Virus record (IMG/VR): IMGVR_UViG_3300001041_000038
Coordinates: 1-37,299 of that record
DNA: 37,299 bases
Reading direction: 5' to 3' (one strand)
Origin: a virus
Position numbers and translations under genes: made by a program. Every line of letters starts with the position of its first letter. Within the stretch, counting starts at the first letter, position 1. The notes under the pieces are model-generated. The model saw nothing but the letters and a program-made list of their open reading frames with translations. It searched no databases and had not been told where the DNA came from. Positions 2,587-37,193 of the stretch are shown here, one piece after another.

Positions 2587-4212
2587 TTACAATTCTTTAT
2601 ACCTCTTTAATGATCCGTCCCCAGTCAGCTCGACCACCTGACCATTCTGATATTTCACTCGTTTCGCTCCGTGCTTCTTCAGCATGAAAATCTGAAACTC
2701 ATCACGCTGCCTCATCTGTTTATAGTCCGCGTCGCGCTCCGCCGGCGGATGATCAACAATGACCTCGGGGATATACAGCACATAGAACGGCACGTCCTTC
2801 ATCCGTATATAGAAATCAAGATGCTCGCTCACTTTTAAATCTTGGTCCCATCGAATATATGCAAACATATCCTTTCGCATCAGCGCGAAGTTCAGCACAC
2901 ATCCAGTCCGCTTGTACCGCATACCGTCGTGCATTCGGTAATTATCTCCGTCACTTGTATGCTCAATAGTATCGCCAATCTTCTTCGGAATGAACTCGAA
3001 ATTGATCTTATGTCCGAGCTGTTCAACACATCCTCCGACAACTCCTGCCTTCGGGTGTGCCTCCATCAGGCTGACCATCTTCCCGATGTCGGTCTTTTCC
3101 GTAAATGCAAAGTCGTCATCGAGGATCAGCTTGTACTTGTTCGGCGTTGTTGCGACAAGATGGTTCCGCGCATAGGAAATACCACAATCGTATGGCAATG
3201 ACTCTGCCGATATTCTTTTAATCAGCCCTGCATCGTAGGCGCGCGAACGCAGTCCTTTATAAAACTCACGGTCAAACTTCTCATTCTGATCGGCGATATA
3301 TATATTCGCCATCGGGTAATGTTCCGCAATCGACAAAACGAGCTTCTCAACTGCCTTCGGCCGTTTGAATGTCGTGATACAGAAATCGACGAACTTCGTA
3401 TCGTTCCTTTTTGAGTGGACGATATGCCCCGGTTTAAAATCCTTCATGCCGTTCATCGTTATGGTATAATCGACACCGAACTTTTCAAAGAACCGATCCT
3501 TATCGCTCCGTCTGCTGCGGAATGCCTTATATTCGAGATCCTCCTGTGGGTCCACATTCGCCGGCTTGTGTACTACTACCGCATCGGGAGTGAAAGCGAC
3601 CTTATATCCTGCCTCTTTGAAATCTATGAACCACGAGAGGTGCTCGTATGCAACTTTAATCTCCTCGTCCCACGGCACCGCCTTTACCTTCTCGGTCCGC
3701 GCAACAAAGAAGTTAAACGTCAGGTCTGCTGGGCAGTAACGGATATCACGCAGAACATCCGTCATATAGATATTTGAGTCATCCACGGCAAGCGGCGTAA
3801 GCTTGATTGACTTTTCGCTTCGATCGATATGTCCCTGATAGTTTCGCAGGACGCCGTCCTGTATAACTCGGCCGCCGATTAGATCAAACGTATCGCAATA
3901 CTTCAGAAATTTGACCATCTTCTCAATCTGAGCGCCATCTGTATAGAAAAAGTCATCATCCCCAACGAGTACATACTCCGTGTCCACCTGCTTGACGAGC
4001 TCGTTTCGGCCGACGCATACACCGCTATCATAGGGGAGCTGGATATATTCCGCATCGTGGTTGTCGCAGTAGTCCTGCATATCCTCGCTGAACTCGCCAT
4101 TCTCCCCGACGAGGATGTTTATGTCGGGATAGAGTGTTCGCAATGATTTGATACAGGCTTTCGTATATCCGGGTCTGAGGAAACTAATGATGATGGCTGT
4201 TACGTTTCTCAT
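2587..4212 (-). CDS. Tandem GT-A (GT2-type) glycosyltransferase
   Basis: 541 residues made of two related glycosyltransferase domains. Domain 1 (about 1-260) opens with VTAIIISFLRPGYTKACIKSL and carries the metal-binding VGDDDFFYTD (Asp85-87). Domain 2 (about 272-541) repeats the pattern with FCITTFKRPKAVEKLVLSI and ILDDDFAFTE (Asp365-367). Both also share the YDxG(V/I)xxxRN motif. Such enzymes move sugars from nucleotide-sugars onto proteins, glycans or DNA bases. Two domains in one chain could add two sugars in turn. The target is not visible; virion or host envelope decoration fits the neighbouring LicD and cytidylyltransferase genes. Confidence 0.88.
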   Translation of the reverse strand: MRNVTAIIISFLRPGYTKACIKSLRTLYPDINILVGENGEFSEDMQDYCDNHDAEYIQLPYDSGVCVGRNELVKQVDTEYVLVGDDDFFYTDGAQIEKMVKFLKYCDTFDLIGGRVIQDGVLRNYQGHIDRSEKSIKLTPLAVDDSNIYMTDVLRDIRYCPADLTFNFFVARTEKVKAVPWDEEIKVAYEHLSWFIDFKEAGYKVAFTPDAVVVHKPANVDPQEDLEYKAFRSRRSDKDRFFEKFGVDYTITMNGMKDFKPGHIVHSKRNDTKFVDFCITTFKRPKAVEKLVLSIAEHYPMANIYIADQNEKFDREFYKGLRSRAYDAGLIKRISAESLPYDCGISYARNHLVATTPNKYKLILDDDFAFTEKTDIGKMVSLMEAHPKAGVVGGCVEQLGHKINFEFIPKKIGDTIEHTSDGDNYRMHDGMRYKRTGCVLNFALMRKDMFAYIRWDQDLKVSEHLDFYIRMKDVPFYVLYIPEVIVDHPPAERDADYKQMRQRDEFQIFMLKKHGAKRVKYQNGQVVELTGDGSLKRYKEL

Positions 4213-4655: not shown

Positions 4656-4657
4656 GT

Positions 4658-4728
4658 TGCGGTGGCTGGTAACGCTCCTGCTTCTCCAACTTATGAGGCT
4701 GGCGACTTTACTTTTAGTCCACACCGCT
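4658..4728 (-). tRNA. tRNA-Met(CAT)-like element, divergent
   Basis: On the minus strand a cloverleaf can be drawn: acceptor AGCGGTG/CACCGCA (6 pairs), D-stem GAC/GTC, a perfect 5-bp anticodon stem CCAGC/GTTGG with loop CTCATAA (anticodon CAT), variable loop AGAA, T-stem GCAGG/CCAGC (4 of 5). The D-loop lacks the GG pair and the T-loop (AGCGTTA) lacks TTC, so it may be a decayed or highly divergent tRNA. It abuts the ATG at 4655. Confidence 0.4.
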
Positions 4729-5065: not shown

Positions 5066-5262
5066 TGCTTTGCGATTTCCCGATCTACCTCATCGACCGC
5101 GGCCGTGAGACATTCTCGAAAATCTTTTAAATCCGTTTTGATATCAGTCCTCAATTGAAAGTTCAGTGCCACGTTCCCTTTCTTGAAACCGAAGTTTCTA
5201 CTGGTCGTATGATCCGCTTGTACGAAATCGACCTTCTTTCTTGTCTGCGTTTTTTTACTCAT
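5062..5262 (-). CDS. Hypothetical protein
   Basis: 66 residues (MSKKTQTRKKVDFVQADHTT...). It has a basic N-terminus and a helical acidic C-terminal half (DLKDFRECLTAAVDEVDREIAKQ). It overlaps by 4 bases both the upstream nucleotidyltransferase fusion and the downstream membrane-protein gene, so it is very probably translated. Function unknown. Confidence 0.6.
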   Translation of the reverse strand: MSKKTQTRKKVDFVQADHTTSRNFGFKKGNVALNFQLRTDIKTDLKDFRECLTAAVDEVDREIAKQ

Positions 5263-6296
5263 AATGCTGCTTTTTCTTTTCTGATCTGCGTCGTGCTGAC
5301 GCCCTCCGTGTACGGTACGACCTTTATTTCAATGCCTAATTCTTCCACTTTATCACGGCCCGGAAATTGTAACCAATCGTCACCGCGAATATACACTATG
5401 CCATGCTTGCTATATTTTTTACATACAAGCATGATCTCTTCCTTTGGATTTTTATTCTCTGTAATAAATACTTCATTTACTAATCCTGTTAGGATAAGGT
5501 TTTCTGCTCTATGCTCGTATGATTGAATTGATACATGCCCTTTGTTTTCAAAAACAGAGTGATCATCATGCAATATAACAATGACATAGTCAGCTATCTT
5601 ATTCATCTCATAAAGTAGGTTGTAATGCCCTTTATGAAATATATCAAACACCCCACACGTAATCGCTATATTTATTTTAGAGTCCCTTTTTTTTGCATTA
5701 CACGATATACATAGAGGTCTTATGTTTCCAATCGAATTATTACCACCTTTTGATATTGGAACGATATGATCTTTAGTAAGAAGACAGAACCCCGTGTGTG
5801 TGCTCTCCCATTTTGATTTTAACTCATCCTCAGAAATCGAACATACTGCACATTTGAATCCATGTTTTTTCTTTAAAGATTCCCATTGTCTTATAGAGTG
5901 TGAACCCTCTACCCCTTTTAAGCGAAGTATTCTTTCTCTATTTTTTAATAGAATTAAATCTTTATTTCTCTTTCTCCAATCAGACCCAATCTCTTTATAC
6001 AATATCGGTTTTTTCTTCTTTGATACTGCCGACGCTTTGTTTTGTTCTTCTCGGTATACAGTATCTGTTGACCTTCTTTTTGCATGCCATTCCTGTTGAT
6101 ATTTCCTTGCTTTTTCTGTTTTATAATATCCTAACGCTACTAACCTTTTTGATTTTCCCTTATTTGTATCTTTGTGTCTAATATATGCGCATCCAGTCTT
6201 ATTATCCCTATCTCCGCAATAAATATGTCTAGGATTTTTTGCAACAAATACGCATTTACAATCTTTACATTTAGTTTCTTTAGGAAATCCTTTCAT
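5259..6296 (-). CDS. HNH nuclease fused to TagD-like cytidylyltransferase
   Basis: 345 residues. The N-terminus has a Cys-rich ribbon (C10, C13, C27, C36). An HNH domain follows (about 130-205): FKCAVC, KDHIVPISKGG (D176, H177) and NIRPLCISCN. From about 208 the protein is a glycerol-3-phosphate cytidylyltransferase-type enzyme: CGVFDIFHKGH (HxGH, 221-224), SYEHRAE, RGDDW (304-308) and EGVSTTQIR (331-339). This family makes CDP-activated alcohols from CTP. No Met lies at the junction, so it is a true in-frame fusion. The gene is visibly AT-rich compared with its neighbours, suggesting recent arrival, perhaps of a homing nuclease. The start ATG follows AATAAAACC. LicD-like gene lies 4 bases upstream. 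Confidence 0.87.
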   Translation of the reverse strand: MKGFPKETKCKDCKCVFVAKNPRHIYCGDRDNKTGCAYIRHKDTNKGKSKRLVALGYYKTEKARKYQQEWHAKRRSTDTVYREEQNKASAVSKKKKPILYKEIGSDWRKRNKDLILLKNRERILRLKGVEGSHSIRQWESLKKKHGFKCAVCSISEDELKSKWESTHTGFCLLTKDHIVPISKGGNNSIGNIRPLCISCNAKKRDSKINIAITCGVFDIFHKGHYNLLYEMNKIADYVIVILHDDHSVFENKGHVSIQSYEHRAENLILTGLVNEVFITENKNPKEEIMLVCKKYSKHGIVYIRGDDWLQFPGRDKVEELGIEIKVVPYTEGVSTTQIRKEKAAL

Positions 6297-6300
6297 GGTT

Positions 6301-6855
6301 TTATTTTCTTACATTTTTCGGTCCATATTGCCAATCCCATTCCTTTACTGGTGTCCTCCACTCCGGCCCATACTTCGCTATCAGCACCGCGATTGGATCT
6401 GCCGGCGCCATATATTCCCTATTCTGAAAATATATAGGCTTTCGTTTTTCAATCAGCTCCGCAGGATACTCGTAGGTTATTACATCTTCAGGCAGATTCC
6501 GTCCGCCGTTTTTAAATGCGTGGAATATGCGCTTATCACCCTCGGACCGGTAGAAAAACAGGTCTATTTTTATTCCATCCCTCGTGAGTGCGATCTCGAA
6601 ATACTTATCGAGCTCGCCGAACTGATGATGTATTATAATACCATCCTCCTCAAGTTGTTCTGCAAATTCGTCGATTGAAAGCGGATGCCATTCCTCGGCA
6701 TATACACCAAGATCAATATCGCCATCGTGCGCAATAAAGTCTCCTTCGCGTACCGCTCCGAGCAGTGTACCGTCGATCAGGAAATAATCAAAGTCTAAAC
6801 TCTCAAGCGCGCTCACGACATCGGACAGAAGTTTTGCGGCATCACTTTTGATCAT
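6301..6855 (-). CDS. LicD-family phosphotransferase
   Basis: 184 residues. Residues 26-52 hold the LicD/fukutin signature: FLIDGTLLGAVREGDFIAHD followed by GDIDLGVY. Asp residues in the GDIDLG stretch bind metal. Members transfer phospho-alcohols (phosphocholine, phospho-ribitol and others) from CDP donors to sugars. The next gene encodes a TagD-like cytidylyltransferase, which makes such donors, so the two probably work in sequence. It overlaps the upstream 68-residue gene by 14 bases. Confidence 0.85.
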   Translation of the reverse strand: MIKSDAAKLLSDVVSALESLDFDYFLIDGTLLGAVREGDFIAHDGDIDLGVYAEEWHPLSIDEFAEQLEEDGIIIHHQFGELDKYFEIALTRDGIKIDLFFYRSEGDKRIFHAFKNGGRNLPEDVITYEYPAELIEKRKPIYFQNREYMAPADPIAVLIAKYGPEWRTPVKEWDWQYGPKNVRK

Positions 6856-7048
6856 CTTTGATTGCCTTCAGTACCTTTGAATATACTGTCTTGTCTTGCA
6901 AACTTGCCACGAGCGTGTCGAGGATTGTTTGTCGCGTAACTGTTTTGCCGACCGCGTTACTCATGTCGAGTGAATGCTGTGCAAGCTCTCGTGCACGGCT
7001 CGGATCGATCGAATAATTACGACGATTTTCTTTTTTTTCTTGTTTCAT
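6842..7048 (-). CDS. Hypothetical small protein, possible RHH-like regulator
   Basis: 68 residues with a basic N-terminus (MKQEKKENRRNYSIDPSRARELAQH) and a helical remainder (TRQTILDTLVASLQDKTVYSKV). The size and pattern are like ribbon-helix-helix DNA-binding proteins, but I cannot confirm this. It is first in a unit running into LicD and the cytidylyltransferase, and its ATG lies six bases after a strong -10 box. Confidence 0.55.
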   Translation of the reverse strand: MKQEKKENRRNYSIDPSRARELAQHSLDMSNAVGKTVTRQTILDTLVASLQDKTVYSKVLKAIKDDQK

Positions 7049-7054
7049 AATACG

Positions 7055-7082
7055 ATTATACCATACCTGTAATATCGTGCAA
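7055..7082 (-). promoter_or_regulatory. Strong sigma70-type leaderless promoter
   Basis: TTGCAC (7077-7082), 16-base spacer, TATAAT (7055-7060) with extended TGg. Six bases then separate it from the ATG at 7048, so the predicted first base is the A of the start codon. The block TATAATCGTATTATGAA recurs exactly before the gene starting at 13008. Confidence 0.8.
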
Positions 7083-7092
7083 CTATTCGCAT

Positions 7093-7101
7093 TGTGGATA
7101 A
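7093..7101 (-). promoter_or_regulatory. Perfect DnaA box upstream of promoter
   Basis: TTATCCACA on the minus strand, 10 bases before the -35 of the promoter at 7055-7082. The same box with the same orientation precedes the promoters at 11858 (20 bases) and 13015 (9 bases). Confidence 0.7.
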
Positions 7102-7102
7102 C

Positions 7103-7471
7103 TTATTCGGGCAACTGCTCGATATAAACCTCCACTCGCGGATTGCTTTTGTCGATATAGAATTGATCCACGAACCCTGCGACGAACTTTCTCGAGTCGT
7201 TCTGCAATACGCCAGCGGTAACGAGTCCGTCGTTGATAAACTTTTTCGCAAACGCAACGTTGTCGGTATCTTTCCGGTTATCCTTGCAATACCAGCAATA
7301 TATAATTCGCACCGGATACTTCTCGACCTTGCCTATTCGAGCAACCTTCGCCGCAAACGCGACGCGATCCGTTTCTGAGTGCTTAATACTGTTTCCACTC
7401 CATCGGCACGAATTGAGCGCCTTTATATACGCATTGAGATCTGTAAGTTCTCCGGGGATCGTAAAGTGCAT
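7103..7471 (-). CDS. rusA: RusA-like Holliday junction resolvase
   Basis: 122 residues from the ATG at 7471 (MHFTIPGELTDLNAYIKA). The core KDNRKDTDNVAFAKKFINDGLVTAGVLQNDSRKF matches the RusA signature, including the Asp-rich active site (DTDN, ND). RusA cuts four-way DNA junctions, resolving recombination intermediates before packaging. It fits with RecT and the nuclease-translocase upstream. A longer frame extends to 7558 but would overlap the preceding gene, so I prefer 7471. Confidence 0.85.
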   Translation of the reverse strand: MHFTIPGELTDLNAYIKALNSCRWSGNSIKHSETDRVAFAAKVARIGKVEKYPVRIIYCWYCKDNRKDTDNVAFAKKFINDGLVTAGVLQNDSRKFVAGFVDQFYIDKSNPRVEVYIEQLPE

Positions 7472-7472
7472 T

Positions 7473-7730
7473 TTAGAATAGGGAGTTTTTTGGTTTGATT
7501 CGATAAGACTTGAAGCCAAACTCATCGGTAAAATCGCTCGCCTCGATATCGTGGCCATCCTCCTGAAGCTGGAAGATCCGCGCGTGGTACTGCGATATCA
7601 ACATCGTTTGCAGAAAATAGCGACCGTTTACCCATCCGCCGGCCCCATTGGCGTTTTGTAATACTGCTAATACTCTATCACATTGCGTTGGTTTTTTCTC
7701 TATGGCTTGTGTCATGTGTTTGTATTCCAT
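7473..7730 (-). CDS. Helix-turn-helix-like early protein
   Basis: About 85 residues. The sequence CDRVLAVLQNANGAGGWVNGRYFLQTMLISQYHARIFQLQ, then EASDFTDEFGFKSYRI, resembles small winged-helix proteins common in phage replication regions. The start is uncertain: ATG at 7730 (MEYKHM) or 7715 (MTQAIEKK). It ends one base before the RusA start, so the two are cotranscribed. It sits directly after the DnaA-box cluster, so a role at the origin is possible but not shown. Confidence 0.65.
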   Translation of the reverse strand: MEYKHMTQAIEKKPTQCDRVLAVLQNANGAGGWVNGRYFLQTMLISQYHARIFQLQEDGHDIEASDFTDEFGFKSYRIKPKNSLF

Positions 7731-7736
7731 CCCCAC

Positions 7737-7992
7737 TCTACTAATTATGTATTCTTAGTAGTAATAGTAGTAGAGCGAATGGGGATAAGTTGTGAGTATG
7801 CGGTTTTTACCGCTCTATTACTACGTTTATTGAATAATACCGATGTGGACAACCTTGGGATAACTGCATAAACACGTGGGGATAACCAGCGCACAATAAG
7901 CGGATTGTGTGGGATAACTCTCGTAATAATTTTAGTATTATGTCAAGTTTATTTTACTATCCTCGAGTTATCCGCCAGTTATCCACATTCGG
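7737..7992. other. Candidate replication origin: DnaA-box cluster with AT-rich stretch
   Basis: No gene lies in these ~250 bases. A perfect DnaA box TTATCCACA is at 7979-7987, with near matches at 7780-7788 (TTATCCCCA on minus), 7853-7861 (TGTGGACAA), around 7877 and 7907 (GGGGATAA, TGTGGGATAA) and 7967 (TTATCCGCC). An AT-rich block (about 7920-7960) could serve as the unwinding element. Purine-rich TAGTAG iterations and an imperfect inverted repeat (GTAGTAATAG...AGAGCG against CGCTCTATTACTAC) lie at about 7757-7830. The region sits beside the DnaA-like gene. Confidence 0.6.
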
Positions 7993-8307
7993 TTATTTGA
8001 GAAATCCCCACATTTTCCACTCCTTTTCTATACCCTCCTTGACCCATTCCTGAAGGTTTGTCGGCTGGCGATCTACCTTACTTACCCCGTGCATTATGGA
8101 TGTATGATCCCGATTATACAGCCGGGCAATCATAGTGTATGGCATGCCAATATGCTTATTAAGCACGAACCATACTGCCATGCGCGCGTCTACAAACTCG
8201 GGCAGCCGAGCCGGCCCCCTCATATCCTCTACGGATACGAGCGAGGCCGAATTTACGATACTCTCTACAAGATAAACCTTATCAACGAAGTCCTTTTGTT
8301 TTTTCAT
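7993..8307 (-). CDS. Stand-alone DnaA domain IV (DnaA-box-binding) protein
   Basis: 104 residues. Residues 30-78 match the C-terminal DNA-binding domain of the initiator DnaA: RGPARLPEFVDARMAVWFVL, then GMPYTMIARLYNRDHTSIMHGVSKV. The NRDHTSIMHG segment corresponds to the DnaA signature that reads the TTATCCACA box. The AAA+ ATPase domain and the N-terminal DnaB-contact domains are absent, so it cannot open an origin as DnaA does. It could bind DnaA boxes as a regulator, a host-DnaA competitor or an origin marker. The next gene region holds a DnaA-box cluster. Confidence 0.85.
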   Translation of the reverse strand: MKKQKDFVDKVYLVESIVNSASLVSVEDMRGPARLPEFVDARMAVWFVLNKHIGMPYTMIARLYNRDHTSIMHGVSKVDRQPTNLQEWVKEGIEKEWKMWGFLK

Positions 8308-8309
8308 GG

Positions 8310-10334
8310 TTATGACATATATCCCTGCAATCGTTCTACTCCGCTATCTCCTACGAATAACATATCACCCTTGCCGGAAAGCTTCTCGGCTCCTGAATCG
8401 TCAAGGATTACTATGCTATCGATTGCCTTTGCTGTTTTGAACACGACCTTTGTTGGGAAGTTTGCCTTGATTGTTCCCTTGATAACATCAACCCGTGGGC
8501 TTTGCGTTGCGATAATAATGTGGATACCGGCAGCGCGCGCCATCTGTGCAAGGCGTAAAATCTTCGTTTCAATCTCTTGCGATATGTTTCGCTTGATTTC
8601 TTCTGTCTCCTCCATGCCAGCCTTTGATCCTCTCGTGAATACATGGCCGGTATATACTGTCTTTACGTCGATATGCTTTGATGCTATCAGCTCGCCAAAC
8701 TCGTCGATTACTACGAATTTATAAGGCATCGTTGGAATACCGGATATATTACGCACGCCTGCCTTCTCCATTTCGCTATACCGCGATTCCATTTCAGTCT
8801 CAAGGCGCTCAAGACCTGCGTGGATGTCCATAATATCACTCTTATATTCAACCGCTTTTTTCTTGTGATGCGATAACTCGACGCGCTTAGGATCGAATAA
8901 ATGTATTTCAGTATTCGGTATGCGCGATAGTTGATCTATAAGCGCGCTTAGGAATACCGATTTTCCGCTTCCTGAGGCCCCTGCAACGAGCATATGGGGC
9001 GCAGTCCGTATATCGAACCGTCTTGGCGCTCCCATGAGCGTCTGGCCGATTGCTACGTCGAATCCGCTACCTTCAGGAACGGTCGGGAAGGTTCGTTCTG
9101 TACGAGGTACTTCAAACCCTATCATTGTGCTATTCGGAATAGGGGCCAGCACGCGCACGCCAGTTATACCGAGTACCTGCTCGATGTCGTCTACATATCC
9201 GCGGATCTTGCTCATCTTAAGCCCTATGGATGGCGTGTACTGGTAAAGGTCAATCGTTGACCCCTCTATCATGCTGTCGAATTGCAACATCATGCCGTGC
9301 TCCATAAGTTTTGTTTGTATCTTCTCTTCGTTTTTCATTGTGGAATAATTAAGATTTTTTGCCGAGACAAATTGCGCTTCGACCGTTTTCATAAGCTTGC
9401 GCATATTGCCGGCGCTTTGGATCTCTTTCTTAAGCAGATCTGTTATGTTTGTGACCTGATGCTTCTTCATAAGATTTGCCTTCTCCACCACCTCATCGAG
9501 GCGATGGATATAGGCAATCATTGAAACCTCGTTGTCGAACATAGCGTGTACATTCGGTACATACACCATTTCGCCATTGAGCGCGCGCGTCATATCCTCA
9601 TAAAAGCGGAAGAAGAAATCAAAGTATAAATCGTTCTCGCTGAACACCATTTCATATTGGCGTACCTGCGACGATCCATCTCTGTTTGCCGTCAGCTTCA
9701 CTTCTTCGAACATTACGGAGTATGGCTCCTCGCCGTACTTTGCGTATGCGAGCAAGTAGTATGTGACCGCTTGCAATATCTTTGCGCCGTCAATCTTATC
9801 AGGGTCCGAGAATGACCTGCACGTTTTGTAATCCTTAATCTTCAGCTTTCCGTCTTCTCGATATACTTGGTCAACATATCCCTTCAGCTTTACCGGAAGG
9901 TTGAGTCTATTACCGCGCCATTCTACATCAATATGCTCTTCAATCTTGTCCTCGGTTGCTATAAGCGAACCGACATGATAAGGGATTTGTTTAATGTACG
10001 AATTGAATGCAAATGTAAATAACTCGTATGCCTTCTGTTTATTTGGAACCGTCTCGGTAAAGTTTATCCAGCCGTCGGGATAATTCTCCAAGAATGTGAG
10101 CCCTCCAGTAAGGCCGAACTTGATGGCCTCCTGCTCGTCTGTCGGTATCATGTCGTCGCATCCGCCATAGTATATCTCCATAGCATTGTGGAATGCCGTG
10201 CCAATGACTCCAGATATTCCCATGGTCGTGTCAAACCGATCCTTGTTCACATAGATGATCTTGAATAGAAGCGGATTTGTCGAAAACTTTGTCATTGACG
10301 ATGCCGAGTAGTGGTCCACCGGAAACGTGCTCAC
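8310..10334 (-). CDS. RecB-like PD-(D/E)XK nuclease fused to FtsK/SpoIIIE translocase
   Basis: 674 residues from a GTG at 10334 that follows GAGGGCGAT just past the RecT stop. The frame is open to an ATG at 10472, but that would overlap recT by 131 bases. Residues about 8-200 are a Cas4/RecB-type nuclease: YSASSMTKFSTNPLLF, GTAFH (H49), GYVDQ (D155), IKDYKT (D168, K170) and LQAVTYY (Q188). No Fe-S cysteine cluster is seen. Residues about 385-674 are an FtsK motor: LAPIPNSTMIGFEVPR, Walker A GASGSGKS (452-459), DPKRVEL, Walker B FVVIDEF (D544, E545) and IIIATQSPRVDVI. No gamma domain follows. I infer a translocating nuclease that makes ends for RecT. Confidence 0.88.
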   Translation of the reverse strand: MSTFPVDHYSASSMTKFSTNPLLFKIIYVNKDRFDTTMGISGVIGTAFHNAMEIYYGGCDDMIPTDEQEAIKFGLTGGLTFLENYPDGWINFTETVPNKQKAYELFTFAFNSYIKQIPYHVGSLIATEDKIEEHIDVEWRGNRLNLPVKLKGYVDQVYREDGKLKIKDYKTCRSFSDPDKIDGAKILQAVTYYLLAYAKYGEEPYSVMFEEVKLTANRDGSSQVRQYEMVFSENDLYFDFFFRFYEDMTRALNGEMVYVPNVHAMFDNEVSMIAYIHRLDEVVEKANLMKKHQVTNITDLLKKEIQSAGNMRKLMKTVEAQFVSAKNLNYSTMKNEEKIQTKLMEHGMMLQFDSMIEGSTIDLYQYTPSIGLKMSKIRGYVDDIEQVLGITGVRVLAPIPNSTMIGFEVPRTERTFPTVPEGSGFDVAIGQTLMGAPRRFDIRTAPHMLVAGASGSGKSVFLSALIDQLSRIPNTEIHLFDPKRVELSHHKKKAVEYKSDIMDIHAGLERLETEMESRYSEMEKAGVRNISGIPTMPYKFVVIDEFGELIASKHIDVKTVYTGHVFTRGSKAGMEETEEIKRNISQEIETKILRLAQMARAAGIHIIIATQSPRVDVIKGTIKANFPTKVVFKTAKAIDSIVILDDSGAEKLSGKGDMLFVGDSGVERLQGYMS

Positions 10335-10341
10335 ATCGCCC

Positions 10342-11271
10342 TCACTCTTCGTCGTATTGGATCTCCGGCAAACCTTCGGGAGCGTCAGCTTTGTCTTGAC
10401 CCTCTTTACCTTCTGCTTTTTTGGCGACTCTTTCTTTGGCTGCTTCGTGCTTTTGGTTGATTGTTTTGTCATTGATTTGTAGATTTCCCATTGTTAATCC
10501 TTTCGTTTCTGCCTTCGCCGCTTCAATCCGATCGGCTATGATACTATCTTTGTTGTCTTCAGCAATTGCGATGTTCAGTGTCTCATTCTTAGGAGCAAGT
10601 TTTGCTGCCTGCTTGAGCACTGTCTTTCGCGGCATCCATCCTTCAGGGTCGTTGGATGCATTCCATGGAGAAAACTCTGAGGCAAAGCTCTTCGAGAACT
10701 TTTTGCCATGCGCGACGATATCTTCTATGCGCATAAACTTTCCGATCTCTCCTCCTGTCTTTGTCGTGATGATCGCATATGCTCCTATCACCTCACCTCG
10801 TTCCGCGAGTGTCTTGAACGGATCTATCTCATGGTAGATGTTTGTATTGATGATTTTAAATACATCGTTTTTATGGACCAATTCTGAGACGATAGACTTC
10901 GCTCCTGCCCGGTAAAGCAACGTGACGATTCCCTGATAGCCGAGTTGGAATTGCGCTTCCATCACCTCGACCCATGCATTGCCTACTTTCTTTTTGCTCT
11001 TATAGGGAAGGACATACGCCTCACCGGAAACATCCGAGGGCATGAACTCGCATTGAGCGACCATCATGAAACTGTTTATGAAACTGATCTGCGTACATTC
11101 GAGCAACTTTGGGTTGCGCTGTACTGCTGCCGTCACTGAGCTCATGAATCGCAGCGCTTTCTTCTGATCTCCAAAATAGTTTTGGATCTGAGTTGTGTAG
11201 TCATGAGCCAATGTACTCTTGAGATCGTTTATCCCTTTGAACTTCACTAATTCATTCTGTTGTTCTGTCAT
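10342..11271 (-). CDS. recT: RecT-family single-strand annealing protein
   Basis: 309 residues. The core matches RecT: RFMSSVTAAVQRNPKLLECTQISF, then FMMVAQCEFMPS, YLPYKSKKK-like stretch, QFQLGYQGIVTLLYRAG and PWNASNDPEGWMPRKTVLKQAAKL. The C-terminal 60 residues are charged and low-complexity. RecT coats single strands and anneals them, normally after a partner exonuclease. Here the partner is probably the nuclease-FtsK fusion encoded next. ATG follows CGATAAAATT, without a Shine-Dalgarno. Confidence 0.93.
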   Translation of the reverse strand: MTEQQNELVKFKGINDLKSTLAHDYTTQIQNYFGDQKKALRFMSSVTAAVQRNPKLLECTQISFINSFMMVAQCEFMPSDVSGEAYVLPYKSKKKVGNAWVEVMEAQFQLGYQGIVTLLYRAGAKSIVSELVHKNDVFKIINTNIYHEIDPFKTLAERGEVIGAYAIITTKTGGEIGKFMRIEDIVAHGKKFSKSFASEFSPWNASNDPEGWMPRKTVLKQAAKLAPKNETLNIAIAEDNKDSIIADRIEAAKAETKGLTMGNLQINDKTINQKHEAAKERVAKKAEGKEGQDKADAPEGLPEIQYDEE

Positions 11272-12000: not shown

Positions 12001-12666
12001 TTATTCGTTCGGTATGTGCCCGAGGATGTGTGAGATCACATCAGCGTTGAACGCATTGCCGAGGCAACGATATTGTTGGTTATTGCTTATCACCTCCGTG
12101 TAATGATCGGGTACAGATTGTAACCTGCAACACTCTAACGGGGTTAACCTTCGCACAATAAGATTTCCGTCATTATATAATTTTATGAAGTTATTATATT
12201 GCCACGATGATCCTGTGAGTGTTGGCGCCTTTTCACTTGATTGATAACCAGCATTCTTGCCCCTTGATTTCCCAACAATGGCAATCTGATCCCAATTGTG
12301 CTTATCTCCGAACTTCGAACCGAGACCCGAGGTTCTGATGGTATTCGATTTCAGCTTTTCTGATCCATCGGGATTGATCGCATATAGCCCAGTTTTCGCT
12401 CCCGTACCTCCTCCGCCCGAAGATAGTGTGACCGATTTGCCGTCTATCTCGTGAATGCGGAATGCTTGCGCGATCGGTTTCCCTTGGCGCATCTTCTCGA
12501 GGATTGTCTGAAGCGTTGCATCGCTGATGTAATACTTCTCGTCTACCTCCTGCTCGAGAATATCTTTGAGGAATATCTGCCTGTCTTCAGGAAGTTTCAC
12601 GCCGGGTATGTTGGTCCAAAATAGTCTCTTTCTTCTTTGTGCAGACACAAGCGCTGCGTCGATCAT
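12001..12666 (-). pseudogene. 5'-truncated DNA (cytosine-5) methyltransferase
   Basis: 221 residues matching only the C-terminal half of a Dcm/DNMT-type enzyme: MIDAALVSAQRRKRLFWTNIPG (like motif VIII), a variable target-recognition region, then RRLTPLECCRLQSVPDHY and RCLGNAFNADVISHIL (motifs IX and X). The SAM-binding motif I, the catalytic PCQ loop and the ENV motif are missing, and the frame is blocked by a stop about 70 bases upstream of the ATG. No other frame nearby supplies them. It is probably an inactive remnant, unless the N-terminal half is made from elsewhere. Ends just before the strong terminator. Confidence 0.8.
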
Positions 12667-33393: not shown

Positions 33394-35376
33394 TTAGATA
33401 ACGCACCGGCAATTTATGACTTCCTCGGCCGACCCTCTCGGATCTCCCGGGAACATTAGTCCGTTTGAAAATGGTCTGTCTATCGGACGTTCCTCGCCGT
33501 CGACTCCGGCGTGGCTTTCTCTCGTGGAACCGTCTACCACCGCAACCCATATCTTCGTGTTTAGCCCTGCCTGCTTATACCCTTGCATCGTTCCGAACTG
33601 GGTCGCGTTATGCACCTCAGTCCGCGCTATCAGCGCGCCTCGCGCCTTCTTGATGCCTCCGTAGGTATCCTGAATGCGATTGATAAGCGCCTCGCGTCCT
33701 TCCTCGGCCGCTATACTTGCGGCGAACTCTCCCTTGAGCTTATCAAGCGTCGTCTCGTTTATGCTCCTCAGGAAGATATCGGCACGGTCGCCGATCCAGT
33801 TCTGAATATCAGATCCCATATTGAATGCTCCTTCGCTTCCTGCAAACTCCATCGCGTCTATACCTGCCTGCTTGAGCAAATCAACCATCAGCGGAATGAA
33901 TACGGTCTTGCCGATTTTCACTTCGACATCGATATGGAATAGATCATCAATCAGCCCCTTCTTTCTGAATGTCCGCGTATTCGCCGGTTGCAGTTGTTCT
34001 ACCATTCGGTCGCGCTGGTCTTCGAAGTATTTATCGAGTGCTGATTTAAACCCTTTCTCACGGGCATCCATCCGTTTGATCTGCACTCCCCAGTACATCC
34101 TGCGCATATCGTAATCCTTTAGTGGATGAGAAGGGGTCTCGTCTTTTAAACGCAAAGATTTGAGGATTGACTTTTGCTTATCGTTCAGGTCTTCCGGTCC
34201 GTCTCCGAGTGGCATTACAGAGAAGGGGACCATGATATCATCTGCTCCGTCAATCGGGTCGAGGCCATGCCTTTCGCGCGCCTCGTTGATTGTCATGTAA
34301 TAATTCTTGATACCCGACTCTGTCTCCTTCAGCTTTTGGTCGATGTTCTCCGGTGTTGGGTCAACGAATGTCAGGTTCTTTCCGTCAGGGAATAGGAACT
34401 CGTCAAGCGCGGTCGTCAATGTAACGAGTAATGGTTTGATTGTTTCCCTTAGGAATATGGAACGGTCAGCGTCGGCATTGTCAAACTTTACCTCGGACGT
34501 TGAGGCAAGCATGCTCTTTGGTACGCCAGTAAGGATGCAGATATCCTCGAGCGTCATCTTTTTCGCGTCAAGGAATGAAAGCTCATCAGGGGACATGCCC
34601 GTCTTGATATACTGTGCATCACCACCCAAAAATAGTGGCAAGCCTGCCTTCTTTGCTGCGCCGTATTCTTTCTGATACTGGCTCTTGAGATTTTCGAGCT
34701 GTTGTTCGGTAAGCGAAGGGGTCTTGAATGTAAACACGCCCTCTACCTTTCCGCCGTTCTCAAGGATACGGCTATGATATGCGCCAATCTGTGTTTCGGT
34801 CTGAATTGCTGTTACACCAGCTTTGAGCAAAGATTGACCTCGTAGCGGATGCTTCGGATCAGGGTTGTGGATGTAGATGATCTGCTCAGGCCTGTATGTT
34901 ATCTCTCCCGAGTTTGTCTTGTATGTATATCCAGTCGGCGCGCCATCTGCGTCAAACTTCGGTTCCACCATCGTCGGATTGAGCAGGTGCATTGCGCTTA
35001 CTTTCTTTGCGTCGAAAATCTCCCGAGAACTTTCGATGAGAATGTATGCCTCGCCGACCGCGTCGTAATACTTCTGATACAGGGACCAAAACTGTCGCCC
35101 AGTGAATACCTTGTTCGGCTTATAAAGCAGGCTCAGTAACGGATCGTTCTCGATTTTCTTCCCCTTTGCGTCCTGCAAAAGAAACTCAATCTCTCCAACC
35201 TTGTCGGCGCGCTTTGCAATGGCCCTGTTAACATAAAGCGACGCGTCGAGCGCGTTCAAAAAATCAGATGATCCCCACTTTGTAGAACCAATCGGCAGGT
35301 TCCCATGAATGATGCCGACATATTTCTTAGCTCGTACCTGATCCCCTATTGATTTAAAAAAATTACGGAAGTCCAT
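33394..35376 (-). CDS. Portal protein fused to MuF (SPP1 gp7-like) domain
   Basis: 660 residues from the ATG at 35376 (MDFRNFFKSIGDQV). Residues about 30-430 are an HK97-type portal (ASLYVNRAIAKRADKVGEIEF, HLLNPTMVEP, ILTGVPKSMLAS). The C-terminal ~130 residues are a MuF domain (RGALIARTEVHNATQFGTMQ, IDRPFSNGLMFPGDP, VINCRCVI). The two are usually separate genes. Another ATG at 35397 lies inside the attenuator hairpin and is less likely. Confidence 0.92.
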   Translation of the reverse strand: MDFRNFFKSIGDQVRAKKYVGIIHGNLPIGSTKWGSSDFLNALDASLYVNRAIAKRADKVGEIEFLLQDAKGKKIENDPLLSLLYKPNKVFTGRQFWSLYQKYYDAVGEAYILIESSREIFDAKKVSAMHLLNPTMVEPKFDADGAPTGYTYKTNSGEITYRPEQIIYIHNPDPKHPLRGQSLLKAGVTAIQTETQIGAYHSRILENGGKVEGVFTFKTPSLTEQQLENLKSQYQKEYGAAKKAGLPLFLGGDAQYIKTGMSPDELSFLDAKKMTLEDICILTGVPKSMLASTSEVKFDNADADRSIFLRETIKPLLVTLTTALDEFLFPDGKNLTFVDPTPENIDQKLKETESGIKNYYMTINEARERHGLDPIDGADDIMVPFSVMPLGDGPEDLNDKQKSILKSLRLKDETPSHPLKDYDMRRMYWGVQIKRMDAREKGFKSALDKYFEDQRDRMVEQLQPANTRTFRKKGLIDDLFHIDVEVKIGKTVFIPLMVDLLKQAGIDAMEFAGSEGAFNMGSDIQNWIGDRADIFLRSINETTLDKLKGEFAASIAAEEGREALINRIQDTYGGIKKARGALIARTEVHNATQFGTMQGYKQAGLNTKIWVAVVDGSTRESHAGVDGEERPIDRPFSNGLMFPGDPRGSAEEVINCRCVI

Positions 35377-35470
35377 AGTAGATGCTTTATTTTGCATCCG
35401 TCGGTACTTCCGTAGGGATATATCACTTATATTTTCGCAGTTATTGTGAATAAGGTCAAGTACTCCGACA
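35356..35470 (-). promoter_or_regulatory. Promoter-attenuator module, copy 3
   Basis: The core CGGAAGTACCG is at 35402-35412. Here the terminator is formed by the core itself: TACGGAAGT (35406-35414) pairs perfectly with ACTTCCGTA (35364-35372), followed by a seven-U tract (35356-35362), so the 3' arm lies in the first codons of the portal gene. An inner GATGC/GCATC hairpin is enclosed. The promoter is less clear (TTGACC, then TATAAG or TGATATATC). Confidence 0.65.
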
Positions 35471-35915: not shown

Positions 35916-37193
35916 TTATACAAAACCAACAAACATCTGACGGGAGTGTGTCCATATTCCATACCGGGTGCCGTCCATCGCGTGGTTGAACTTATCGACC
36001 GGGTCGTTTGTCGGCTCCTTGTTCCGATCCATGGCCCATTTGTACTCCTGTACTTCAGTCGCAATGTTCTCGCTATCCTCGGTGTAGAATACCTCCTTTT
36101 CGAGAAGCATATTGATGCCGGCGGTTACGCTATCAGGCCCCTTGTCTGCTGGCCGAACATCCCAACCGTACCCTCTCAACTCCTCGATTGACTTCGGTTC
36201 CGAACTATCGGCATAGATGATCGCGCTCTTTGGTATTCCCAGCTCCTCCATTCGCTTTGACAGTTGTTTATTAAGCAATCCTGTTTCGTAGATCATCTCC
36301 CTGAGCCACACTTTGTCGTTGTGCTGTTTGATGCCTATCAGCGCGGCAGGGTCGTTCGTAAAGCCGAAATCCAATCCGTATATTTCCTGAAAGGGGAGTT
36401 GCTCGTATACCGCGGTTGTTGTTGGCGTCCAGTTTTTAAAGATACGACCGCGCGATCCTTCACTCACCAGCCCTTCGATCATGTTGTAATAATGGTCTGG
36501 CCGAATATCCTTGTAGTTTTCGAAGTTCGAAATCGTTGTTTCGTTCAGGTTCCTGACATTGTCCCTGAAGGTTGAATGGATGAATAGCGTATCGGTGTAT
36601 GACTGCTTCAGCTCGGGCCGGTAGAATCCTTCTCTATCTGACTCCACAAGATTAAACCACCGCTTTATGATCCAATGATTCTTATGCGGAGGATTTAACA
36701 TCATCATAATCGTGATGTCCGACTTCATGGTGCGGAGTGAGTCATCCAACTGCATGAAGTCCTCCTCATTGATTTCGTCTGCTTCTTCGATGATGACGCA
36801 GTTATAGTTTGCGAGCGACTTGAGCTTTGATTTTTGATCACCACTCGACTTCCGAAAACCGATGCCGTTTATTTTGTTGTTCCCGTACTCGAATGTGAGT
36901 AGATGCTCCTTCACGCTGATAGATTCTTCGAGGCCGTGTTCCTCTATGCGGTCATAGATGTCCTGATAGATACTGTTGCGGATATCCCCGAGAACAAGGC
37001 GCATGATCGCGCATCGAAAATACTCGGGCGCCCTTAGCTTTGCAAGAGCGAACTGGCTCGCCACAGTAGAACGTCCTGCTGCGCGACCGCCCATCAGGAT
37101 GATATAGCGTGGCTTCTTCAGGAATACATCCCGGTATTTATTGTTGACCAATTGGCTCGTCTGCATGTTCTTCTTGTTTTTCTTCGATGGCAA
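35916..37193 (-). CDS. terL: Terminase large subunit
   Basis: 425 residues. The ATPase has a Walker A of the form GGRAAGRST (35-43) and Walker B VIIEEADE (E136/E137). The nuclease has LDFGF (D275), IIYADSSEPKSIEEL (D329) and a C-terminal FNHAMDGTRYGIW (D407). It packages DNA through the portal. The start overlaps the small-subunit gene by 56 bases; an ATG at 37166 is an alternative. Walker A has Arg in place of Lys, a known terminase variant. Confidence 0.95.
   Translation of the reverse strand: MPSKKNKKNMQTSQLVNNKYRDVFLKKPRYIILMGGRAAGRSTVASQFALAKLRAPEYFRCAIMRLVLGDIRNSIYQDIYDRIEEHGLEESISVKEHLLTFEYGNNKINGIGFRKSSGDQKSKLKSLANYNCVIIEEADEINEEDFMQLDDSLRTMKSDITIMMMLNPPHKNHWIIKRWFNLVESDREGFYRPELKQSYTDTLFIHSTFRDNVRNLNETTISNFENYKDIRPDHYYNMIEGLVSEGSRGRIFKNWTPTTTAVYEQLPFQEIYGLDFGFTNDPAALIGIKQHNDKVWLREMIYETGLLNKQLSKRMEELGIPKSAIIYADSSEPKSIEELRGYGWDVRPADKGPDSVTAGINMLLEKEVFYTEDSENIATEVQEYKWAMDRNKEPTNDPVDKFNHAMDGTRYGIWTHSRQMFVGFV

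Follow-up and report, generated by a model that had tools for sequence, protein, structure and literature searches.

A phage PD-(D/E)XK nuclease joined to an FtsK-type motor and encoded beside RecT: probably an ATP-powered recombination exonuclease

The locus and its gene products

The window analysed here is a 37,299-base IMG/VR virus record, considered over its whole length and with positions given as 1-based within it. The span 8310-11271, to which the original prediction had drawn attention, comprises two minus-strand genes in different frames, namely a gene for a nuclease-FtsK fusion (8310..10472) and, directly upstream and overlapping it by 131 nt, recT (10342..11271), so that the claim of a RecT encoded immediately upstream is borne out. 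The fusion gene starts with an ATG at 10472 and encodes one chain of 720 aa, while recT encodes a single-strand annealing protein of 309 aa (Pfam RecT 4.1e-31, PHROG 148 3.4e-52, NCBIfam TIGR00616 above cut-off). From its Lys-rich N-terminus onwards, the fusion protein consists of a PD-(D/E)XK (RecB/Cas4/RecE-like) nuclease domain (9570..10310, minus strand as for all features of this gene; residues 55-301, Pfam PDDEXK_1 4.9e-11), a conserved inter-domain linker (9360..9569, residues 302-371), an FtsK alpha domain (9105..9359, residues 372-456, Pfam FtsK_alpha 6.8e-13) and an FtsK beta, or RecA-like motor, domain (8325..9062, residues ~471-716, Pfam FtsK_SpoIIIE 5e-23 at 471-660). The motor domain contains Walker A (8958-8981, residues 498-505, including K504), Walker B (8697-8714, residues 587-592, including D590 and E591) and, 3' of Walker B, a variable insert that is predicted to form a beta-hairpin (8586..8672, residues 601-629). 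The Pfam matches to PDDEXK_1, FtsK_alpha, FtsK_SpoIIIE and RecT all lie above the gathering score, and phmmer aligns the motor to the solved FtsK motor of P. aeruginosa/E. coli (PDB, 4e-46). The gene ends after FtsK beta, and Pfam gave no FtsK_gamma match in the fusion. The iron-sulphur staple of AddB/Cas4 needs more than three cysteines; since the whole 720-aa chain has only three, the fusion should be devoid of a staple of this type.

The putative catalytic residues of the nuclease domain are H95, D201, D214, K216 and Q234 in full-ORF numbering. These are the residues that had been named earlier as H49, D155, D168, K170 and Q188, a correct choice with numbers offset by 46 because they were counted from an internal GTG at residue 47. 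We favour the ATG at 10472 as the start, since relatives conserve sequence 5' of this GTG: a basic '..KL.LPKV..' N-terminus is kept in them, including in a locus where recT does not overlap the fusion gene (L009).

The next gene downstream of the fusion encodes a DnaA C-terminal HTH-like protein (7993..8307, minus strand; Pfam Bac_DnaA_C 1.2e-11), which is also found in loci L007, L009 and L066, and the same module includes a RusA-like Holliday junction resolvase (7103..7558, minus strand; PHROG 1682 1.4e-33), also present in L007 and L009. These neighbours place the fusion in a replication/recombination module.

Elsewhere in the window, a divergent phage tmRNA that ARAGORN missed is matched at 1363-1665 on the minus strand (Rfam RF00023, 74 bits against a gathering score of 47, E 4e-27), with AKTGVTLSDYLSLTSNRQFAFAV* as a possible tag frame; no tmRNA was found in the 11 related loci that were scanned. 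A weak tRNA-like match (35.6 bits), also missed by ARAGORN, lies at 4657-4728 (minus strand). An unusual fusion of an HNH endonuclease to a cytidylyltransferase-like domain (5259-6296, minus strand) adjoins a gene for a LicD-like protein (6301-6855), with a glycosyltransferase nearby (2587-4212). The gene for a cytosine-5 DNA methyltransferase (12001-12666, minus strand) covers the C-terminal half only (Pfam profile positions 186-322 of 324), and the N-terminal half was not found upstream of it. A single gene (33394-35397, minus strand) combines a portal protein with a Mu F-like head morphogenesis domain.

Conservation of the fusion

At least 32 further contigs, from viruses or MAGs, encode the same architecture, at identities down to 31%, which answers the question of whether this domain order exists elsewhere. 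A search with the full protein retrieved two viral contigs that keep the same order (65-66% identity), and a search with an alignment of nuclease and linker retrieved true relatives in nine viral contigs and one 6.4-kb Patescibacteria MAG contig; in all ten of these nuclease-side relatives the fusion is full-length or truncated by the contig. One locus cut at a contig end (L014) was left out as evidence, and a further candidate initially taken as a relative (H1, MT836718) was rejected, being a cellular-type FtsK beside metabolic genes. In an alignment of 32 fusions, whose members are 31-66% identical to that of the window and of which 30 extend to the motor, H95, D201, D214 and K216 are invariant (32/32) and Q234 is kept in 31/32, being replaced by A in one relative (L006/L080). 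Likewise, none of the 30 sequences extending into the motor departs from Walker residues K504, D590 and E591. Together with the Pfam matches, these residues uphold the claim that one chain carries both PD-(D/E)XK and FtsK Walker A/B motifs.

Conservation of the linker equals that of the domains (0.68-0.73), and the spacing from the end of the nuclease to alpha is constant within clades, at exactly 84 aa in 23 members, 67 aa in six and 62 aa in three, a constancy which suggests that nuclease and motor are held in a fixed geometry. Within the motor, by contrast, the length from Walker B to Q643 varies among relatives between 15 and 89 aa. The last beta motif, 'RLQG', is followed by only 2-3 residues after 'LQG' in every member in which it was located, and these members therefore lack a gamma domain.

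It might be supposed that a sequencing error has joined two proteins, or that an internal start or cleavage splits them in vivo; the window record has no exact copy, and some Met codons fall within the linker. However, no stop codon interrupts the fusion frame, the same frame is unbroken in the at least 32 other independent contigs, no start codon with a ribosome-binding site is conserved in the linker region among relatives, and the linker is strongly conserved and constant in length. An artefact or a pair of separate proteins is thus hardly credible and was rejected. As far as can be judged from sequence, the fusion is a single chain with intact active sites and a linker of constant length, and without a gamma domain.

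In a tree of motors, those of the fusions group together as a single clade (97/92), separate from 30 Patescibacteria FtsKs and from other phage FtsKs. In the nuclease tree, which has a very long outgroup branch, the nucleases of group B are paired with stand-alone nucleases of Patescibacteria, a topology compatible with one fusion event as well as with two. Loci L083-L089 represent an intermediate fusion clade, 32-35% identical to the window fusion and with the 67-aa linker. In a 40.7-kb relative (G006, IMGVR_UViG_3300048588_000134) the fusion gene spans the ends of the record (bases 3-1946 and 40536-40712), so that this record apparently represents a complete, circularly permuted genome. A phage contig with a distant fusion (L012) also carries GroES-like and GroEL-like genes, recognised by eye, at 7045-8918.

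As to the host, two hints tentatively suggest Patescibacteria: one fusion contig comes from a Patescibacteria MAG, though it may have been binned in error, and relatives of the fusion nuclease occur as stand-alone chromosomal genes in 3/380 Patescibacteria genomes. The latter, on the chromosomes L020, L021 and L022, are relatives of the nuclease domain of 275-299 aa, that of L020 being without an NCBIfam name.

Association with RecT and replacement by YqaJ

A RecT-family gene is present with the fusion in the window and in all 32 other fusion contigs, and adjoins it in most. Among the ten true relatives from the nuclease-side searches it lies directly upstream in every case; in seven of the ten this is a close RecT, and in L011-L013, where the fusion is ~32% identical, a much diverged RecT-family gene overlaps the fusion start by 1-8 nt. 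So that the fusion itself should not bias the sample, the linkage was also approached from the RecT side with a search that used a RecT alignment alone, blind to the fusion, and yielded 36 loci. Where RecT was at least 38% identical, the fusion was found downstream of recT in 28/31 loci, overlapping recT or within 5 nt of it in 23 and at a distance of 0.4-2.4 kb in five; other genes sit between recT and the fusion in L083, L088 and L089. A wider search with diverged RecT found the fusion only in three contigs that were already known. The linkage with RecT is therefore conserved when viewed from either gene.

Three of the 31 loci have no fusion. Two of them (L073 and L081) have a stand-alone YqaJ exonuclease in its place (PF09588 1.8e-17 and 3.6e-19) and no FtsK, and a third (L090) has a 317-aa ORF. 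In the RecT tree, L073 and L081 nest inside a 98/99-supported clade of RecTs that are otherwise linked to the fusion. Searches of whole records found YqaJ in 0/30 records with the fusion, and in the four records without it no FtsK scored above the curated cut-off; in fusion records, the lengths of FtsK-scoring frames fit the fusion itself. The mutual exclusion of YqaJ and fusion has a Fisher p of 7e-4, uncorrected for kinship between records. The window has no YqaJ match, and at Pfam thresholds the fusion nuclease belongs to PDDEXK_1 and not to YqaJ/lambda-Exo or DUF3799/RecE, with a weak DUF3799 match below cut-off in L011. In Firmicutes phages, the usual neighbour of recT is a YqaJ or DUF3799 exonuclease, according to a survey that makes no mention of FtsK (PMC8093625).

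Taken together, the RecT linkage, the replacement by YqaJ and their mutual exclusivity point to a RecT/exonuclease (SynExo) pair in which the exonuclease has its own dsDNA translocase. The fusion is probably an ATP-powered version of a phage recombination exonuclease, since it stands beside RecT where related phages keep an ordinary exonuclease. The view that it is the exonuclease half of such a pair, permanently joined to an FtsK-type translocase, is the one that we consider likely from these genomic patterns, and the earlier proposal of a recombination pair whose exonuclease gained a translocase appears well supported by them.

Moving DNA is the usual job of FtsK motors and many phages encode stand-alone FtsK-like proteins, which would fit a translocase that serves packaging, genome segregation or the resolution of dimers and whose nuclease part trims DNA in that step. 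Such a role is quite improbable, given that the fusion has no gamma domain, that no FtsK is found where YqaJ holds the slot, and that the known phage FtsK proteins checked (Bobby, KKP_4050, Mater, Bp8p-T, 268TH004 and PK3.5) contain no nuclease. Furthermore, the window encodes its own portal, capsid and terminase large subunit genes, and as the last of these (TerL, 35916..37193, minus strand; Pfam Terminase_3 1.9e-31 and Terminase_3C 2.5e-12, PHROG 2 1.3e-32) is an ordinary Terminase_3 protein, the packaging role that had also been envisaged is disfavoured. In Mycobacterium phage Bobby (L053, 1791-4296), a Ku-like protein that binds DNA breaks is encoded two genes upstream of the stand-alone FtsK translocase, which is another link between a phage FtsK and DNA ends.

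Predicted structure and comparison with known systems

A shallow full-length AF2 model reached a pLDDT of 74 and a pTM of 0.46, with low pLDDT at residues 325-372; this poor linker and low pTM weigh against the reading of the fusion as a motorised RecT partner, as do the A in place of Q234 in L006/L080 and the 0.4-2.4 kb between recT and the fusion in five loci. The best fold matches of the full-length model are FtsK motors, followed by TcpA and HerA, and its best viral match is BFVD A0A8S5RDL0 (E 7.6e-30, 25% identity), a 400-aa protein of virus sp. ctkyY8 named only 'PD-(D/E)XK nuclease', which may be a partial relative of the fusion. A nuclease-only model (pLDDT 90.6) matches the ACE1/Cas4, AdnAB, AddB, MGME1, RecB and RecE nucleases (Foldseek). 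The nuclease fold is thus of the RecB/AddB/AdnAB kind.

Known SynExo pairs (RecE-RecT, lambda Exo-Red beta, YqaJ-RecT) resemble the fusion locus in that a RecT-family annealase is encoded beside a PD-(D/E)XK exonuclease; the fusion exonuclease differs in lying outside YqaJ/lambda-Exo/DUF3799 at Pfam thresholds and in being joined to an FtsK motor. To our knowledge, the exonuclease partners of known SynExo pairs are motor-less toroids. The original prediction had likened the protein to RecBCD/AddAB, a comparison that holds for the nuclease fold, and for the general idea of a motor and a nuclease at DNA ends shared with RecBCD, AddAB and AdnAB, but not for the motor, which is an FtsK/HerA-class pump in a single chain in which Pfam found no superfamily-1 UvrD-type helicase domain. 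For the same reason HerA-NurA is the closer mechanistic analogue. This system of archaea and Deinococcus combines a hexameric dsDNA pump with a nuclease and is proposed to process DNA ends, NurA docking on the N-terminal HAS-barrel face of HerA, at the DNA exit (PMC9960219). What the fusion shares with it is an FtsK/HerA-class dsDNA pump that carries a nuclease, plausibly on the N-terminal face. On the other hand, HerA-NurA is encoded by two genes and not as one chain, NurA belongs to another nuclease family, the fusion has FtsK alpha instead of the HAS-barrel, and six nucleases per ring are expected in the fusion as against two in HerA-NurA. Profiles of NurA and of the HAS-barrel have no match in the fusion, and that of the HerA central domain matches weakly.

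Combinations of a nuclease with HerA/FtsK also occur in host defence (PMC10853773; PMC11291478), and they bring in a further possibility, namely that the fusion is a machine that destroys the DNA of the host or of competing phages or plasmids, with recT nearby as a member of an early-gene cluster and not as a partner. HerA-NurA-type and DndH-type systems have been proposed to act in this manner, and the HerA-NurA of T. kodakarensis degrades both strands and performs no resection (PMC12977600); a motor-nuclease of this class thus need not leave a 3' tail, which leaves room for a degradative role. PADLOC matches the motor part to SspH (3.3e-27), mad8 and HerA. Like the fusion, the 'HerA/FtsK capture' proteins DndH/SspH combine in one chain a HerA/FtsK ATPase and, N-terminal to it, a REase-type nuclease, but DndH is a protein of ~1700 aa and eight domains from a host defence operon, whereas the fusion has ~700 aa and three domains and lies in a phage beside recT. 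The DUF4297-HerA anti-phage complex, a nuclease and HerA motor supercomplex that cuts dsDNA (PMC11291478), differs from the phage fusion in comprising two proteins and in acting in host defence by abortive infection. The PADLOC matches cover the motor only, the RecT linkage holds across deep divergence, and a canonical RecT exonuclease fills the slot where the fusion is absent, all of which makes a DNA-destroying role unlikely; no specific support was found for the earlier suggestion of an attack on host DNA.

Proposed mechanism and significance

If the fusion is the exonuclease of a RecT pair, its FtsK alpha/beta domains would assemble as a ring, presumably a hexamer, on a dsDNA end, such as one arising from replication or packaging. 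As the gamma domain is lacking, this ring would not be steered by KOPS-like sequences. ATP hydrolysis would drive DNA through the pore and on to the nuclease domains, which the constant-length linker would keep at a set distance from the ring, on its alpha side; by analogy, the position of the nuclease N-terminal to FtsK alpha plausibly corresponds to the face on which NurA docks on HerA. One strand, presumably the 5' strand, would be degraded, and RecT would then be loaded onto the exposed 3' strand and anneal it.

Among open-licence papers no description of the fusion with RecT was found, and none of the annotated phage (50,697) and plasmid (72,556) records covers 80% of the fusion protein. 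On balance, we lean towards an undescribed and widespread class of motorised exonucleases for phage recombination, possibly in viruses of Patescibacteria; an FtsK ring fused to a RecB-like nuclease would here take the place of the toroidal partner of RecT (RecE, lambda-Exo or YqaJ), and end resection would be ATP-driven and highly processive. Recombineering is built on phage annealase systems, whose exonucleases as so far described run without a motor; the fusion could serve as a new recombineering part and would offer a compact, testable model of the coupling between pump and nuclease through a linker of fixed length. In conclusion, if a single natural chain that acts as both exonuclease and translocase stands in for YqaJ next to the same RecT, then the motor-plus-nuclease principle known from RecBCD and HerA-NurA has arisen in phage recombination too.
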